This document shows positions 2,423-11,784 of a stretch of DNA of 26,072 nucleotides, one piece after another. This DNA comes from a virus: positions 1 to 26,072 of IMG/VR virus record IMGVR_UViG_3300045790_002265; one strand, 5' to 3'. Position numbers and translations under genes: made by a program. The stretch's first letter is position 1. The number at the start of each line of letters is the position of its first letter. The notes beneath the pieces were generated by a model. It was given only the letters and a program-made list of their open reading frames with translations, was not told the DNA's origin and made no database searches.

Positions 2423-2628
2423 GCGCGCGCTTCCACGCATTCAAAGGCTTGGCCCTGCGCGGCCAATGTCGCAACTGCCGAGCATAGGTTTGCCGTGCCT
2501 GTTTTGCGAATGATGTTGGCTTTGTGATATTTGAAAGCTGATGTGCTTACACCCAAACGATGGGCCGCGACTTTTTCAGGTTGCGTCAGCAATGGCACTG
2601 CGCGTTGTTCTGCTGGCGTAAATGTCAT
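2419..2628 (-). CDS. stand-alone LuxR/GerE-type helix-turn-helix protein
   Basis: This 69-residue protein is almost entirely one DNA-binding domain: FTPAEQRAVPLLTQPEKVAA, HRLGVSTSAFKYHKANIIRKTG and a C-terminal SAVATLAAQG helix. It matches the GerE pattern (helix, turn, recognition helix, K.H..NI..K.G). No receiver or ligand-binding domain is present. The start is set at ATG 2628, which overlaps the upstream stop as ATGA; the downstream gene is joined the same way. It probably regulates phage or host transcription; the target is unknown. Confidence 0.75.
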   Translation of the reverse strand: MTFTPAEQRAVPLLTQPEKVAAHRLGVSTSAFKYHKANIIRKTGTANLCSAVATLAAQGQAFECVEARA

Positions 2629-2867
2629 GCTGTGCCGCCTTGTTTTGCCACTTGGATATTGGCGGCGCGCAACCATAGGCCGTGGGCGTTGTTTTCTGAG
2701 TTGGCAAGTACGCGGATGCCGTGCAGGTCAATCATGAACGTGTTGCCAGCTTGGGCTTGATAACTGCCGCCGCATTCGAGAGTTTCTGCAACAAAGGTGT
2801 CATGTTTGGTTGCGAAATCGCTTTGAGGATCGATGCGGTCGAGCAGGTTTTGAATGGGGGTGTTCAT
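2625..2867 (-). CDS. small hypothetical phage protein
   Basis: This is an 80-residue protein beginning MNTPIQNLLDRIDPQSDF. ATG 2867 shares an ATGA with the stop of the preceding gene, which fixes the start. The C-terminal half (FMIDLHGIRVLANSENNAHG) looks like a small beta-rich fold. There are no membrane segments or known motifs. It is the third gene of the leftward operon, function unknown. Confidence 0.65.
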   Translation of the reverse strand: MNTPIQNLLDRIDPQSDFATKHDTFVAETLECGGSYQAQAGNTFMIDLHGIRVLANSENNAHGLWLRAANIQVAKQGGTA

Positions 2868-3115
2868 GCGATGCCCTCGAGTTGAGCTAAGTGGAAGAAC
2901 ACCGAATTTACGATTTTCGGTGAGGCGTTGATGATTTCGAGGAGTTCCCCGTGAAAGAGATCTGGGCTTTCGGGCGGTTCCGATACGTCGAGACCGCAAA
3001 CCCAAGTGTGGGTGAGATCGACTTGGCGACCTGCGATTTTAAAGGATATGCTGAGGCCCTTAAATTCCTTCGCTGCGGTCTGGCAGCTTGCACATAATTC
3101 TGGCAAGGCGATCAT
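2864..3115 (-). CDS. small hypothetical phage protein with CxxC
   Basis: This is an 83-residue protein starting MIALPELCASCQTAAKEFKG. A CASC pair near the N-terminus and a third Cys at WVCGLDV could bind metal but do not form a recognised zinc finger. The start at 3115 is fixed by an ATGA overlap with the upstream gene, and the stop overlaps the next start likewise. It is the second gene of the operon, function unknown. Confidence 0.65.
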   Translation of the reverse strand: MIALPELCASCQTAAKEFKGLSISFKIAGRQVDLTHTWVCGLDVSEPPESPDLFHGELLEIINASPKIVNSVFFHLAQLEGIA

Positions 3116-3369
3116 GCTGTGCCCTCAACCGATGAGAGCGCGGACAGGATCAAACGCTTGGAATCGACGGTTTCGCCACGCGCCTCTTTGAGGGTGCGAA
3201 AGGCCAATGCGCGGCGCAGGGCGGGGTGGTTTTGCGGCGTGTCGACGATGATCTGCGCGTGATCGATGCGCAGTGGATCGAGGCCGAAGATTAGTGTGCC
3301 TAAAAAATACGGGCAGTCAGGCGCTTTGGCGCCTTTTGTCGAAAAGTCTTTGTGTTGAAGTTTTGACAT
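3112..3369 (-). CDS. small hypothetical phage protein, first gene of the leftward operon
   Basis: This is an 85-residue protein beginning MSKLQHKDFSTKGAKAPDCP. The frame is open further upstream, but ATG 3369 has a good ribosome site (GGAGAG, about 5 nt before) and lies about 55 nt after the predicted start of the leftward promoter. Its stop overlaps the next start as ATGA. No domain is recognised. In lambda this position is held by N; the sequence lacks the Arg-rich N-terminus of N proteins, so no such role is claimed. Confidence 0.65.
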   Translation of the reverse strand: MSKLQHKDFSTKGAKAPDCPYFLGTLIFGLDPLRIDHAQIIVDTPQNHPALRRALAFRTLKEARGETVDSKRLILSALSSVEGTA

Positions 3370-3431
3370 TGGTCTCTCCATCGTGAAATTCCGCGATCTG
3401 CCTGTGGCGTCTTCTGCGGTTGATGGTGAGA

Positions 3432-3484
3432 TTGGTAGTCCGATTTTTCCGTACTGTAAAGCATTTTGTCCGAAATAGTCGGAC
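3432..3484 (-). promoter_or_regulatory. leftward early promoter with two operators (OL/PL equivalent)
   Basis: On the minus strand TTTACA (3460-3455) and TACCAA (3437-3432) are spaced exactly 17 bp, and that spacer (3438-3454) is a 17-bp operator, GTCCGA-TTTTT-CCGTAC read on +. A second, perfect operator GTCCGA-AATAG-TCGGAC occupies 3468-3484, 30 bp away. The same two kinds of site occur on the other side of the repressor gene. This should drive the eight-gene leftward operon and be silent in the lysogen. Sequence-based; not tested. Confidence 0.75.
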
Positions 3485-3640
3485 GTATAATTGTTGCAAC
3501 GAAACCCCTTGCGCGGTATCGTTCGGAACAAAAAAAGAACAAATCATTTTAGATTAGCGAGTTAAGCATGATTCTAATTTTGAGAATTTTAAGAAAAATA
3601 GGATTCAACTGTAACTGGCTGATCTCACCGACTGTCGCAC
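3485..3640. other. A+T-rich non-coding stretch between repressor gene and OL
   Basis: About 155 bp without a credible gene. A TATAAT hexamer (3486-3491, + strand) directly follows the perfect operator but lacks a good -35. A GTTC...GAAC element with an A-run lies at 3521-3540. No proper terminator for the repressor transcript is seen, so some repressor transcription may read into the leftward operon. Confidence 0.5.
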
Positions 3641-3943
3641 TTAAGCGGCGAGAGCGGTTTCTAAGGCGAGCTGCACATCACCAGGAAGATGATTGAAGTC
3701 ACCATTGAAGACATAATTGAAATCAATTCGATGGTTTACATATAGGAAACGAATAGTTGAAATAGCAGGTTTTCCTAGTTTTTCTTGTGTATTGTACGTT
3801 GTCTTAGAAATACCTAAGGCTTTTGCAAAATCGGTTTGCTTCACAAAGCCCGCAGCTATGCGTGCAGCCTTTATCCGTACTGCGACCGCTTCTGCTGTCC
3901 CGTCATCTTTTCTGAAAAGTAGGTTTTTTGCACTGATATCCAT
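3641..3943 (-). CDS. short helix-turn-helix phage repressor (CI-like)
   Basis: This 100-residue protein has an XRE-type helix-turn-helix at about 23-70: VRIKAARIAAGFVKQTDFAK, ALGISKTTYNTQEKLGK and PAISTIRFLYVNHRIDF. It lies between two operator pairs and divergent from a Cro-like gene, the position of lambda cI. The C-terminal tail is only about 25 residues, so there is no LexA/CI-type self-cleaving peptidase domain. No ribosome site precedes the ATG, and a -10-like TATAAA (3957-3952) ends 8 nt before it, suggesting a leaderless or nearly leaderless mRNA. An operator (3962-3978) overlaps the -35 region, so it probably controls its own synthesis. Confidence 0.85.
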   Translation of the reverse strand: MDISAKNLLFRKDDGTAEAVAVRIKAARIAAGFVKQTDFAKALGISKTTYNTQEKLGKPAISTIRFLYVNHRIDFNYVFNGDFNHLPGDVQLALETALAA

Positions 3944-5572: not shown

Positions 5573-5748
5573 TGGGCCTCTTTTCTTCACAGTTTTGGAA
5601 TTTCGGCCGTCTCCTCCCCCTTGAGGCCGAAATAGGGCGCGGGCTTTGTGGGCGAGGCTCGCGCCCGTTGTTTATAAGTTCGCGTTGTGTCTGTGGGGCT
5701 GCACAGGCGGGTGATTGTCCGGCCTGTGCGCATGGTGGCCTGTCATGA
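5572..5748 (+). CDS. 58-residue Cys-rich peptide
   Basis: An open frame from ATG 5572 to TGA 5748 encodes MGLFSSQFWNFGRLL..., ending in RCVCGAAQAGDCPACAHGGL. The CxC...CPAC pattern (four Cys in a 13-residue span) could bind zinc. It is joined to both neighbours: its ATG overlaps the previous stop (TGATG) and its stop overlaps the methyltransferase ATG (ATGA). This double coupling is the main argument that it is translated. Function unknown. Confidence 0.55.
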   Translation: MGLFSSQFWNFGRLLPLEAEIGRGLCGRGSRPLFISSRCVCGAAQAGDCPACAHGGLS

Positions 5749-6449
5749 GTATCCGCCGCGATATCACGATCGGCAATGCGCGGATGATCCTTGGGGATTG
5801 TCGCGAGGTGCTGCCAGAATTGCGCGGCGTGGCGGACATGCTGTTTTGCGATGTGGCCTATAAGCTGACATCGGGCGGCAACGCGCATCAGTCGATGGGC
5901 GGTCTGTTTGCGGCAGAGAATTACGCCAACGATGGCCTGCTGATGGACGTGCCGCCTTGGCATGATTTGGGCGGGCCGTTTTATCGCGCCTGCAAAGACA
6001 ATGCCGACGCCTATATCATGACCAACGATAAGAACCTGTTTCGGGCTGGCGCGGCATTCGAGGGCGCAGGCTGGAAATTCCACAATTTGCTGGTGTGGGA
6101 CAAGATCCGCGCCACGCGCAATCGCTGGTACATGAAAAACCTCGAGTTCACCACTTACTGGTGGAAGGGCAAGGCCGATCCGCTGGGGATCAATGATTGC
6201 GGCTCAAAACAGAGTTTTCAGCTGAACGCCCCAAAAGAGACAGCGCATCCGACAGAAAAACCCGTCGCGCTGTGTAAACACTACATTCTCAATTCGACGC
6301 ACCAAGGCGATGTGGTGCTTGACCCGATGATGGGGGCAGGTGCTGCGATTGTGGCTGCGGTCCAAAATGGTCGCCATGCGATCGGGATCGAGCTCGATGA
6401 GCAATGGTTTGAAGTGGCCTGTGCGCGGGTCAGAAAGGCTTTGCAATGA
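5745..6449 (+). CDS. DNA N6-adenine/N4-cytosine methyltransferase (beta-class order)
   Basis: This 234-residue protein of the N6_N4_Mtase family would transfer methyl groups from S-adenosylmethionine to DNA. The catalytic motif IV position reads DVAY (36-39) instead of the usual DPPY; the SAM-binding motif I is LDPMMGAGAA (192-201); HPTEKPVAL (168-176) precedes it as usual in this family. The order IV before I is the beta arrangement. It probably marks phage DNA against restriction or affects regulation. ATG 5745 is set by the ATGA overlap with the Cys-rich peptide gene, and the next gene also starts on an ATGA. Confidence 0.88.
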   Translation: MSIRRDITIGNARMILGDCREVLPELRGVADMLFCDVAYKLTSGGNAHQSMGGLFAAENYANDGLLMDVPPWHDLGGPFYRACKDNADAYIMTNDKNLFRAGAAFEGAGWKFHNLLVWDKIRATRNRWYMKNLEFTTYWWKGKADPLGINDCGSKQSFQLNAPKETAHPTEKPVALCKHYILNSTHQGDVVLDPMMGAGAAIVAAVQNGRHAIGIELDEQWFEVACARVRKALQ

Positions 6450-6817
6450 CATTTGAAGAGCAACTCAGAACCTGCGCGCGGGTCGCGGCACAGGGGCGGC
6501 ATGTCGCCTTTATTGTCGGTCGCGCGGCGGATGAACGTTTTGCGCGGGATCGCTGCGGGGCGCTGACGCCAGCACATGCCGTGCGGCGCGGGGCGCTGAT
6601 TTACTGCACCGGCGTGATGCGATTTGTGCAGGCCAGCGGGGCCAGTTTTGTGTTGAAGGGCTTTAGCGGGTTTGTGGTTTTGGATGCACGGCTTGAGCTT
6701 TCAAATGGCATGATGCGCGAGTTGCGCGATCTGCAAGACGCCTGCGCGATGCTGTTTCCTGACGGGGAATTCGAGCGGCTGGCGCAGATCGATGTTGAGA
6801 CAGGGGCTGCGCCATGA
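6446..6817 (+). CDS. hypothetical phage protein
   Basis: This 123-residue protein starts MTFEEQLRTCARVAAQGRHV. The first half (VAFIVGRAADERFARDRC) and the later VLKGFSGFVVLDARLEL segment suggest an alpha/beta fold; there are no transmembrane or catalytic motifs that I can identify. It is coupled by ATGA overlaps both to the methyltransferase and to the replication protein gene, so it may serve early DNA metabolism. Family not recognised. Confidence 0.7.
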   Translation: MTFEEQLRTCARVAAQGRHVAFIVGRAADERFARDRCGALTPAHAVRRGALIYCTGVMRFVQASGASFVLKGFSGFVVLDARLELSNGMMRELRDLQDACAMLFPDGEFERLAQIDVETGAAP

Positions 6818-7440
6818 ATGCCTTTCAAGTTGTCGGCGGTACATCCGGTTCGGAGCTGCCTTTATATCCCTACGGTGCTGAGCATCGTCTCGACAGCCAT
6901 TTCTTTGTCGCTTGGGAACGCAGGCGATGGCTCAATTCTGGGATGCGCTTGCAAGGCACGCCAGAGTGCCGCGCGCTCTACCTCGATTTGATTTGGATCT
7001 CTTACGATCAGGCGCCGGTTGGTACCTTGCCGACAGATCCTGCTATTCTGGCCAAGATCCTGATGGTGGATCGCGGTCATTTTGAGGCCCTGTGCAAGCT
7101 GCCGTTTGGTCCGCTGCACAATTGGGTGCAATGCGAATGTGATGGCGGCGAGGTCCGCTTGATGCACAGTCAGGTTTTGCGCACGCTCAATGAGGCGATG
7201 TCGCGGCGCGAAGACAATCGCGCCAAGAATGAGGCGGCCAACGCCGCCAAGCGGTTGCAACGCCTGCGATCCACACTGGCAGGCTATGACGCTAAGCTGG
7301 TCGAGAATGATGCCGCTGTGCGCTGGATTGATGAGTATTTGGTTAAGCAAGGCGTGGCCTATCGCACCTCAAGCGTCGTTGAGGAGGCCTTGCGGTCCTG
7401 GTCCGATCACATGCTCGATCTTGGCATGCGGCGACCGTAA
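6814..7440 (+). CDS. probable phage replication protein (DUF1376-like)
   Basis: This 208-residue protein shows the pattern of DUF1376-type phage replication/initiation proteins: an N-terminal winged-helix-like region (LDSHFFVAWERRRWLNSG..., CRALYLDLIWISYDQAPVG, LPTDPAILAKIL) at about 30-115. A charged helix follows (SRREDNRAKNEAANAAKRLQ), and then an unrelated C-terminal part. The stop is directly followed by the helically phased repeat array at 7454-7525 and a DnaA box, so it is the natural candidate initiator binding there, as lambda O does at its origin. No helicase motifs are present. The assignment rests on pattern memory and context. Confidence 0.6.
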   Translation: MNAFQVVGGTSGSELPLYPYGAEHRLDSHFFVAWERRRWLNSGMRLQGTPECRALYLDLIWISYDQAPVGTLPTDPAILAKILMVDRGHFEALCKLPFGPLHNWVQCECDGGEVRLMHSQVLRTLNEAMSRREDNRAKNEAANAAKRLQRLRSTLAGYDAKLVENDAAVRWIDEYLVKQGVAYRTSSVVEEALRSWSDHMLDLGMRRP

Positions 7441-7453
7441 TTCCTTAAATTCA

Positions 7454-7525
7454 AACTGTCCCGAAAGTGTCCTGAGGACAGTTCAAGACAGTCTCAGACA
7501 GTCTTCGGACAGTTTCGAAGTGTCC
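7454..7525. repeat. seven helically phased 8-bp iterons
   Basis: Octamers of the GGACAGTT family start at 7454, 7465, 7476, 7486, 7496, 7507 and 7518, so steps are 11, 11, 10, 10, 11 and 11 bp, one DNA turn each. The forms are AACTGTCC, AAGTGTCC, GGACAGTT, AGACAGTC, AGACAGTC, GGACAGTT and AAGTGTCC. The first two and the last are inverted relative to the middle four, making dyads such as AAGTGTCC-TGA-GGACAGTT. All copies face the same side of the helix. Confidence 0.88.
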
Positions 7526-7639
7526 TCTACGATAGGGATAGAGACAAAGACAAAGAAAAAGAAATTGGCAGTTGCGCTCCATTTGAGGCGCAGAGGCTGT
7601 GGATAAGTCGGAATTGCTGAGAAAAGGGTGGGTGTCAAA
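7454..7639. other. candidate phage replication origin
   Basis: The non-coding 200 bp between the replication gene and the next gene contains, in order, the iteron array, a purine-rich A+T-rich run (about 7531-7566, GATAGGGATAGAGACAAAG...) and a perfect DnaA box TGTGGATAA at 7598-7606. Iterons, an easily melted segment and a DnaA box beside an initiator-type gene is the standard make-up of an origin. Replication activity itself is inferred. Confidence 0.65.
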
Positions 7640-8212
7640 ATGAACAGTGCAGAACAAGCGGCAGGCGAAAAGCGTGTGAGAGAACAGTTGGTCATGCCGC
7701 TGTTGCGGCGCGGGCTGGTGAAGCCGTCCAGCCTGACGAAAGATCAGTTCGAGGACATGGTGCAAGATCTCTGCGCGCGGCTGGCTTACATGAGCGACGT
7801 GAACTTGGCGGCGCTGGAAGAACAGGCGGCGGCCAGCCCGAGTGGCAAAGACCACGACCGCTTTCCGATCGCAAACAAGATGCTGGAATGGGCGGCGGTG
7901 ATCCAGCGCCCTGATGAAAGCAACTCGCCTTTGATCCGCGCGGTGTTCGCGCATGAGTTGGGCAAGGGCGCTGTGCGCGATGATTGGGCGCCAGAGTTGC
8001 TGGTGGACCTGCGCAAGTCGCGGCGCTGGCCGACCGAGTTCGCTTTGAAACGCATTTTGGAAAGCGCCAAAGGAGCGAGGGATCGCCAACGCAGCATCGA
8101 GCGAAAGCTGGCGCGGGCTGAACCTGTGTCTGATCTGGACGCTGGCTGGCGTGACAAGCGGATCGCGGCGATGCGCAAATGCGAAGGCCTTGCGGCGATT
8201 GAGACGTCTTGA
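7640..8212 (+). CDS. hypothetical early phage protein
   Basis: From ATG 7640 (MNSAEQAAGEKRVREQLV) the protein has 190 residues; a GTG at 7628 would add four. It is mostly helical and charged, with no Cys cluster, membrane segment or Walker motif. Segments such as LTKDQFEDMVQDLCARLAYM and RWPTEFALKRILESAKGARD recall helical phage replication accessory proteins, but I cannot name a family. It lies just right of the candidate origin and just before the candidate late regulator. Confidence 0.65.
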   Translation: MNSAEQAAGEKRVREQLVMPLLRRGLVKPSSLTKDQFEDMVQDLCARLAYMSDVNLAALEEQAAASPSGKDHDRFPIANKMLEWAAVIQRPDESNSPLIRAVFAHELGKGAVRDDWAPELLVDLRKSRRWPTEFALKRILESAKGARDRQRSIERKLARAEPVSDLDAGWRDKRIAAMRKCEGLAAIETS

Positions 8213-9604: not shown

Positions 9605-10072
9605 ATGGATAACGATTTTTCCGAGGATAAGCCTCAGTTTGACCTGTTTGGGAATTTGATTGAACCGCTGCGGGATCGTCGCGGGCGTCCATCGTTTTCA
9701 AAAAGTAAGGAAAATCAAGACTTTGTGACCGTGCGTTCAGCTGCAGGTTGGACACAAGAAAATATATCAGAGGCGCTGGGGTGCGATTTGAAGACAATGC
9801 GCAAACATTTTTCCCTAGAGCTTCAAGCCGGCGCTTTAATTCTTGAGGGGCTGCAGCTCGATGTTTTGATGCAGCGGACAAGACAGGGGCATGTGCCATC
9901 GATCAAAGAGCTGCGCGCCATCACTGAGAAAGGCCGCTTGCGTCGTCATCCGGCTCCGACAAAAGAACCAAAGGCTGATGTTCCTGGCAAGAAAGAGCAA
10001 CGCATCCGCGATGCCCAGCATCCATCGGGGTCTTGGGGCGAAGTGCTAAACACCAAAGGTGATGTGCACTGA
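9605..10072 (+). CDS. terS: terminase small subunit
   Basis: This 155-residue protein starts MDNDFSEDKPQFDLFGNL. After RRGRPSFSKSKENQDFVTV an HTH appears: AAGWTQENISEALGCDLKTM (about 47-66), followed by RKHFSLELQAGALILEGLQL. This arrangement, with the GRP..F and a DNA-binding N-terminal domain, is seen in terminase small subunits, which recognise the packaging site and recruit the large subunit. The C-terminus is basic and Lys-rich, perhaps contacting TerL. The stop overlaps the TerL start (TGATG). Confidence 0.75.
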   Translation: MDNDFSEDKPQFDLFGNLIEPLRDRRGRPSFSKSKENQDFVTVRSAAGWTQENISEALGCDLKTMRKHFSLELQAGALILEGLQLDVLMQRTRQGHVPSIKELRAITEKGRLRRHPAPTKEPKADVPGKKEQRIRDAQHPSGSWGEVLNTKGDVH

Positions 10073-11784
10073 TGCCATTTGATTTCGCCTGTCCAGATTG
10101 GGAAGAGCGCCTACAGCGGGGCGAAACACCGATCGCGGATTTGCCGATCGATGAAGAGGCCGGTGAAGAAGCTGTGCGCATTTTCAACCATCTGCGCCTG
10201 CCTGATGTGATTGGAAACCCGCCTTTGCGTGAAGCTGCAGGGGACTGGATCCGCGATATCGTGCGGATGGTGTTCGGATCGATGCTGACATCTGCTGATG
10301 GGTATTTGTCGCGCAAGGTGGGCGAGGTGTTCATCTTGGTGCCCAAAAAGAATTCTAAAACGACGAGCTCGGCGGGGATCGCGCTGACCTTCATGCTTTT
10401 GAACAAGCGACCAAAGGCGGACATGCTTATCATCGGGCCAACGCAAAAGATTGCGGATGTCGCGTTTGAGCAAGCCAAGGGAATGATTGAGGCCGATCCG
10501 GAAGGCTATCTGCGGGATCGCTTTCATGTCCAAGACCACAAGAAAACAATTGTCGATCGCATTAATGGCACGCGGTTGATGGTGCGGACCTTTGGGATGG
10601 ATGTTCTGACTGGTGCCAAACCGATCTTTTGCTTGATTGATGAAATCCATGTTCTGGGCTCGGTGCATTATGCGGCAGATGTGATCCGACAAATTCGCGG
10701 CGGGATGCTTCCGTTTCCCGAAAGCCTGCTGGTGATGATCACGACGCAAAGCGATCATTCTCCGGCTGGGGTGTTTAAGACAGAATTGCAATATGCGCGC
10801 GGCGTGCGTGATGGGTCCATTACTGAGAGCGTAAAACTGCTTGCGGTACTTTATGAGTTTCCCGAGGCGGTTCAGACCGACAAGAAACAACCATGGCTCA
10901 ATCCTGATCTGTGGCATTTGGTGACGCCAAACTTGGGCAAATCCATTTCTATCGAGGCGCTGCGAGAAGGGTTTGAGCGCGCCAAAGCGGACGGCATGGG
11001 TGAGGTTATTGCTTGGGCCACGCAACATCTTAACGTGCAGGTTGGCATGGCTTTGCATGTCGACCGTTGGATCGGCGCAGATCACTGGCCAGCTGCCGGA
11101 GACAAAAGCATTTCGTTCGAACGGATCTTGGATGAGTGCGAAGTGGCCTGTGCTGGCATCGATGGCGGTGGCCTTGATGATTTGTTTGCGCTGTCCATCA
11201 TTGGGCGGCACCGCGAGACAAAACGCTGGATGCATTGGGCGCATGCCTGGGCACATCCGGAGGTATTCGAGCTGCGCAAAGATATTGCGCCGCGTCTGTT
11301 GGCAATGGCGGATATGGGCGATCTCACGCAGTGCGAGGATCCAACGCAAGACATCGATGAGGCTTGTGATTGGATCATGCGGGTGCATGATGCGCGGCTT
11401 TTTCCCGAAGCTGCAGCTGTCGGACTTGATCCATTTGGCGTCGCAGCCTTGATCGATGCGTTGATTGGCGCAGGGATCGGCGAAGATCAATTGGCCTCAA
11501 TTCCTCAAGGGGCGCGGTTGAGCCAAGCGACCTGGGGGCTCGAGCGCAAACTGAAAGATGGGACATTTGTGCATGGCGCCCAAGAGCTGATGACCTTTTC
11601 TGTGGGCAACGCCATTGCTGAGCAACGCGGCAACGCGGTTTTGATTACCAAACAAACAGCGGGAAAAGCCAAAATCGATCCGTTGGTCGCAACCTTAAAC
11701 GCTGTCACTTTGATGGCAAGAAACCCGAAAGTATCACGCCGATCAATTGAATCGATGCTTTCCCGTCCGGTGATGAACATATGA
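10072..11784 (+). CDS. terL: terminase large subunit
   Basis: This 570-residue packaging ATPase/nuclease is HK97-like. A Walker A-like segment VPKKNSKTT is at 90-98 and the Walker B with catalytic Glu, FCLIDE, at 186-191. The C-terminal nuclease domain starts near 360 with CAGIDGGGLDDLFALSIIG, and AVGLDPFGV provides a second acidic position. Length and order are normal for the family. It pumps DNA through the portal and cuts concatemers. It starts on a TGATG overlap with terS and ends on an ATGA overlap with the portal gene. Confidence 0.95.
   Translation: MPFDFACPDWEERLQRGETPIADLPIDEEAGEEAVRIFNHLRLPDVIGNPPLREAAGDWIRDIVRMVFGSMLTSADGYLSRKVGEVFILVPKKNSKTTSSAGIALTFMLLNKRPKADMLIIGPTQKIADVAFEQAKGMIEADPEGYLRDRFHVQDHKKTIVDRINGTRLMVRTFGMDVLTGAKPIFCLIDEIHVLGSVHYAADVIRQIRGGMLPFPESLLVMITTQSDHSPAGVFKTELQYARGVRDGSITESVKLLAVLYEFPEAVQTDKKQPWLNPDLWHLVTPNLGKSISIEALREGFERAKADGMGEVIAWATQHLNVQVGMALHVDRWIGADHWPAAGDKSISFERILDECEVACAGIDGGGLDDLFALSIIGRHRETKRWMHWAHAWAHPEVFELRKDIAPRLLAMADMGDLTQCEDPTQDIDEACDWIMRVHDARLFPEAAAVGLDPFGVAALIDALIGAGIGEDQLASIPQGARLSQATWGLERKLKDGTFVHGAQELMTFSVGNAIAEQRGNAVLITKQTAGKAKIDPLVATLNAVTLMARNPKVSRRSIESMLSRPVMNI

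Follow-up and report, generated by a model that had tools for sequence, protein, structure and literature searches.

The window, which is the whole stretch of DNA analysed here, covers an IMG/VR virus record from end to end (26,072 bases). On the basis of its integrase (190-1263), terminase, portal, head protease, tape measure and tail fibre genes, the record represents a temperate siphophage. The region of interest lies between two co-directional genes, the first of which encodes a predicted replication initiator; it contains an octamer array, a purine tract and a DnaA box (Table 1). An initiator protein with 100% amino acid identity to that in the window is encoded in a Pacificibacter marinus contig (L083). 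An N6/N4 DNA methyltransferase gene is located at 5715-6449, two genes upstream of the initiator.

Table 1. Features at and near the octamer array. Iteron sequences are quoted on the unit strand.
Feature	Position	Strand	Sequence	Remark
Predicted initiator gene	6814..7440	+		208 aa; predicted remote DUF1376/YdaU member (PHROGs, hhalign, fold search)
Iteron 1	7454..7461	-	GGACAGTT	
Iteron 2	7465..7472	-	GGACACTT	
Iteron 3	7476..7483	+	GGACAGTT	
Iteron 4	7486..7493	+	AGACAGTC	
Iteron 5	7496..7503	+	AGACAGTC	
Iteron 6	7507..7514	+	GGACAGTT	
Iteron 7	7518..7525	-	GGACACTT	
Purine tract	7531..7564	+	GATAGGGATAGAGACAAAGACAAAGAAAAAGAAA	presumed unwinding region
Perfect DnaA box	7598..7606	-	TTATCCACA (TGTGGATAA on the + strand)	72 bp past the array
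Downstream co-conserved gene	7640..8212	+		190 aa from ATG 7640; GTG 7628 also possible
Terminase large subunit gene	10072-11784			2.6 kb downstream of the array

The array at 7454-7525 consists of seven octamers of the GGACAGTT family, of which the first two are inverted, the next four direct and the last inverted. Direct reading bore out to the base what a preliminary description of this DNA had claimed, namely seven octamers in mixed orientation at 10-11 bp steps; the centre-to-centre steps are 11, 11, 10, 10, 11 and 11 bp. The placement of all octamers on one face of the helix was likewise confirmed, with a phase vector R of 0.975 at 10.5 bp per turn, and R of at least 0.95 arose in 0.14% of draws from a random-gap null. 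In the 187-nt intergenic gap, the counts of the top 6-, 7- and 8-mers exceeded those in all 500 dinucleotide shuffles. GACA[GC]T cores occur seven times in the array and at most once in every other 80-nt interval of the record, and the same 80-nt scan found no second octamer cluster in the 26 kb. An ORF of 138 aa (7190-7606) overlaps the initiator gene in a different frame and terminates within the DnaA box. The transcript of the region is predicted to fold a little more stably than shuffled versions (z = -2.65), as might be expected if the repeats acted as RNA, in a hairpin, antitermination or mRNA control element. This reading is very improbable: the inverted units give hairpins for free, an Rfam search finds nothing, a 10-11 bp pitch is a feature of duplex DNA, and some relatives carry same-direction, non-pairing copies (e.g., ten at 11 bp in locus L131, described below).

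The 6814-7440 protein matches 'replication protein' in PHROGs (E = 1.9e-4), in agreement with the earlier statement that the array directly follows a replication-type gene. The window protein has no hit at the gathering score of Pfam PF07120 (30.1 bits), and weak matches to Pfam DUF1376 were found in 13 of 68 relatives (best E = 0.0024). In hhalign comparisons, the initiator family aligned with a profile of 20 DUF1376 domains at 97% probability (E = 1.2e-10) and with the single DUF1376 members L150 and L144 at E = 6.7e-9 and 1.9e-6, while YdaU alone gave only E = 0.013. The AlphaFold model of the initiator (pLDDT 91.7) was used for fold searches, and eight of the ten top matches in BFVD are named DUF1376 (best E = 7e-7). 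These profile and model comparisons identify the protein as a predicted remote member of the DUF1376/YdaU family. The PDB fold search with the model gave no significant match, and comparing the initiator profile with PDB sequences gave no match at all. Comparison with lambda O gave an hhalign probability of 0.2%, no O-type C-terminal domain was seen in the initiator, and the Pfam search of the window had no hit to a Rep_3-type initiator.

The weak PDB fold matches include MarR-type folds, TubR and staphylococcal RepA (5kbj, 4pta, E ~0.3). Winged-helix proteins are often regulators, and the array, sitting between two co-directional genes, could be an operator through which a phage regulator controls the downstream gene or operon with no involvement in replication. 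The PHROGs match and the YdaU kinship indicate replication, however, the purine tract and DnaA box suit an origin better, and a weak scan of 6700-7900 found no sigma-70-like promoter; we consider an operator improbable. The TubR match recalls partition centromeres such as those of parC/tubC systems, in which phased repeats are bound by an adaptor protein, and centromeres typically contain phased 10-12 bp repeats. That the array is a centromere is nevertheless highly unlikely, as the initiator is kin to DUF1376, the record encodes an integrase and so belongs to an integrating phage, and no ParA, ParM or TubZ partner was found among the neighbouring genes scanned.

The protein encoded at 7640-8212 belongs to a family that is conserved in alignment and is all-helical in a confident structure model. 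It has no database match, and searching the PDB for its fold gave no significant hit. Comparison with lambda P and YdaV detected no similarity to either, and no helicase loader was recognised in this way. The product is a possible helicase-recruiting partner.

Homologues of the 6814-7440 protein were retrieved from 80 viral loci, 43 genome loci and phage Psul1. The same module lies directly after the initiator homologue in about 120 related loci. Nearly all loci with a readable downstream region share the plan of array, purine tract, usually a DnaA box, and a co-directional gene, and the array begins after the initiator stop codon or just across it. Judged from these loci, the array is one version of a widespread arrangement and not peculiar to the window phage. 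Removal of near-copies left 70 loci, which were assigned to four unit classes: class A (GGACAGTT, 52 of 70 loci), class B (TCACGGAA, 3), class C (GGAAGGAA, 13) and class D (CGGAACAGT, 2); the word lists of the classes were made by eye, so these counts are descriptive. The unit sequence varies by clade, and the 10-11 bp pitch is constant. Among the 312 steps between neighbours in class A, 212 are 10 or 11 bp, and 25 others are overlapping matches on the two strands of one site. The flanks of the class A core carry weaker information, the core itself being imposed by the search pattern. Past the initiator stop codon of the relatives, stop codons number 63, 63 and 63 in the three frames, showing no frame bias, which fits the earlier view that the array has no coding role. 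The idea that the array is a relic of the C-terminal tail of the protein, by comparison with ordinary DUF1376 genes, is unsupported because of these equal counts.

Several relatives show further arrangements. In two Rhodobacter-type loci (L098 and L099), array and tract occur twice in tandem, ~190-200 bp apart, at about 1-300 nt past the initiator stop codon. Split arrays follow the initiator stop codon in L026, L029, L032, L035, L041, L046, L047 and L109, with ~40-55 bp between the first iteron cluster and one or two inverted iterons beside the tract. The gap in L046 contains a perfect IHF consensus (TATCAACGGCTTA). An IHF site as a feature of split arrays was not convincing, with this one perfect and six one-mismatch sites among the 70 loci. 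Psul1 (MK291443), a complete related phage, also has the module, and its array is likewise the densest cluster. This phage is an inducible Paracoccus phage in which the authors recognised no replication protein (PMC6536676). The annotation of Psul1 (L153) also lists, at 2507-3661, a gene for the DNA polymerase III beta subunit (sliding clamp), seemingly an unusual one for a phage of 38 kb.

The purine tract that had been reported beside the array is present and follows a six-base step (GATAGG GATAGA GACAAA GACAAA GAAAAA GAAA). Among the 70 loci, the purine maximum exceeds the 95th percentile of the controls in 98.6%. The tract step differs by class, being six-base in class A (mean z 2.28) and five-base in the three loci of class B (3.67); in classes C and D the same is seen more faintly (z 1.46 and 1.63). 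The tract rhythm goes with the iteron class, which hints at sequence-specific reading of the tract. The perfect DnaA box, previously placed about 70 bp on, was found at the position given in Table 1. Of the 70 relatives, 49 have an exact box, where 0.0004 would be expected per 330 nt, and in 16 the box is absent or degenerate (at least two mismatches). The box is less universal than the array and may therefore be accessory. Between the tract and the box, 7565-7597 contains a possible short hairpin (TTGCGCTC...GAGGCGCAG); a stem in this position is seen in many relatives but is not significant (mean z -0.67 vs -0.29 in controls).

The co-variation of repeats and protein was examined in the relatives. 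On a tree of 69 initiator proteins, the unit class changes three times, the minimum possible, compared with a mean of 17.0 when shuffled; the unit type thus follows the initiator clade, in line with the check proposed in the preliminary description. Physical linkage by itself would produce part of this coupling, which gives the recombinants their weight. The recombinant evidence comprises two cases. Between L082 (class D) and L122 (class C), a stretch of 663 nt that starts just before the DnaA box and runs through the downstream gene is 97% identical, whereas the initiator genes of the two loci share ~67% identity and the arrays are unrelated. In L074 (class B) and L059 (class A), the sequence across the DnaA box agrees at 57 of 57 nt, and the arrays differ. 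From these recombinants, the exchange units are the initiator gene with array and tract on one side and the DnaA box with the downstream gene on the other, with a module boundary between tract and box. Residues E35-R36-R37 occur in every class A member and in no other class; they are candidate specificity residues, although any clade marker would look alike. A packaging (pac/cos) site recognised by the terminase would be in keeping with the terminase large subunit gene 2.6 kb downstream. The position of the array behind the initiator gene in every class, and its co-variation with that gene, argue against this reading, as do the arrays inside ordinary DUF1376 genes described below, and we give a packaging site very little credence.

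To extend the comparison to the wider family, 24 ordinary DUF1376 genes from 299 Pseudomonadota genomes were examined over the 400 nt after the domain. Of the 24 genes, 9 have a repeat cluster stronger than in every shuffle, compared with 2 of 116 control blocks taken from those loci (Fisher p = 1.3e-6); the other 15 genes did not pass this test. In the nine arrays, 40 of 53 steps are helically phased. These arrays lie mostly within the coding region, just after the domain, a placement that recalls the iterons in lambda O and also speaks against an operator. Behind many of them comes a short periodic tract (CCAGAA, GACAGT or GGGAGA repeats, identified by eye). In L131 (reverse complement), ten ACGCCCGT-like copies are located 283-390 nt past the DUF1376 domain, inside the gene, all in the same direction and at steps of exactly 11 bp. 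Two host genomes of relatives were searched for PF07120 without a hit. In E. coli YdaU, residues 173-285 match the C-terminal region of lambda-O-type replication proteins, among them replication protein O of Gifsy-1. In one example, DUF1376/YdaU, with function unassigned, lies beside a recognised helicase loader (PMC7760358). No assigned function for DUF1376/YdaU was found in the open-licence literature; earlier work may exist elsewhere.

Because the layout is kept in about 120 related viruses, the region is very probably a replication start site, and the neighbouring gene very probably makes the starter protein. It is highly likely that 7454-7606 is a lambda-like replication origin bound by the 6814-7440 protein, in a phage whose hosts are, with similarly high confidence, Rhodobacteraceae/Roseobacteraceae. 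The origin reading, already put forward in the preliminary description, is supported by the conserved architecture with an iteron sequence that changes with the initiator clade, and also by the DUF1376 kinship and the arrays in ordinary DUF1376 genes. In the proposed mechanism, the initiator would bind the octamers with one binding domain per turn on one helix face, and protein and array would form a compact O-some-like nucleoprotein complex. If lambda O and iteron plasmids are a guide, this complex may strain the adjacent purine tract and cause melting, after which the initiator and/or DnaA would hold one opened strand. Host DnaA at 7598-7606, perhaps with the 7640-8212 protein, may help to recruit the host helicase. 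For the family as a whole, we favour with moderate confidence the view that the DUF1376/YdaU domain is an iteron-binding initiator domain, with short, helically phased origins in or just after its gene in numerous Pseudomonadota phages and prophages, a tract whose sequence and step (five or six bases) match the iteron type, and an opened strand that is read sequence-specifically.

Among known systems, the module resembles lambda O/ori-lambda and other lambdoid origins in that iterons lie within or beside the initiator gene, with an asymmetric A/purine-rich tract behind them, and in that origin specificity goes with the initiator. The O gene of lambda contains four iterons of 18 bp at steps of 20, 24 and 23 bp, whereas the window has seven octamers in mixed orientation at 10-11 bp steps past the stop codon, together with a DnaA box; the shorter unit and tighter phasing previously remarked on are therefore real. 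No relationship between the window initiator and lambda O was detectable. In lambda, the AT-rich origin DNA is bound by O in single-stranded form, and the tract with two iterons is enough for unwinding (PMC7466680). The Rac prophage holds an active origin, oriJ (PMC3945230). The ydaU gene of E. coli Rac belongs to the same N-terminal family by remote homology. Inspection by eye shows three GTTCAAACA-type repeats together with a six-base A-rich tract inside the gene, directly behind the domain; the ydaU array is barely above shuffles (1 of 60 as good). YdaU differs in its extra lambda-O-like C-terminal part.

Iteron plasmids (RK2, F, P1 and pSC101) share the combination of iteron array, unwinding tract and DnaA box. 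Their units are about 17-22 bp and mostly direct, and Rep_3-type initiators bind them; the window has mixed-orientation octamers and no Rep_3-type initiator. SaPI and PLE satellite origins similarly have short iterons adjoining a satellite-encoded initiator but use other initiator families (SaPI Rep, RepA_N), with weak fold similarity to staphylococcal RepA.

What is new here is very probably a variation on the lambda-like plan, with the origin carried by the initiator gene itself. This suggests a function for DUF1376, a domain that Pfam lists without one and that occurs in phages of many bacteria, and gives a rule for finding origins, namely to seek phased octamers directly after the DUF1376 domain. 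It also supplies the inducible phage Psul1 with the replication module that it had seemed to lack (PMC6536676). With the natural unit variants and their matched proteins, together with the recombinants, the recognition of iterons by the initiator and the part played by the tract can be tested directly.
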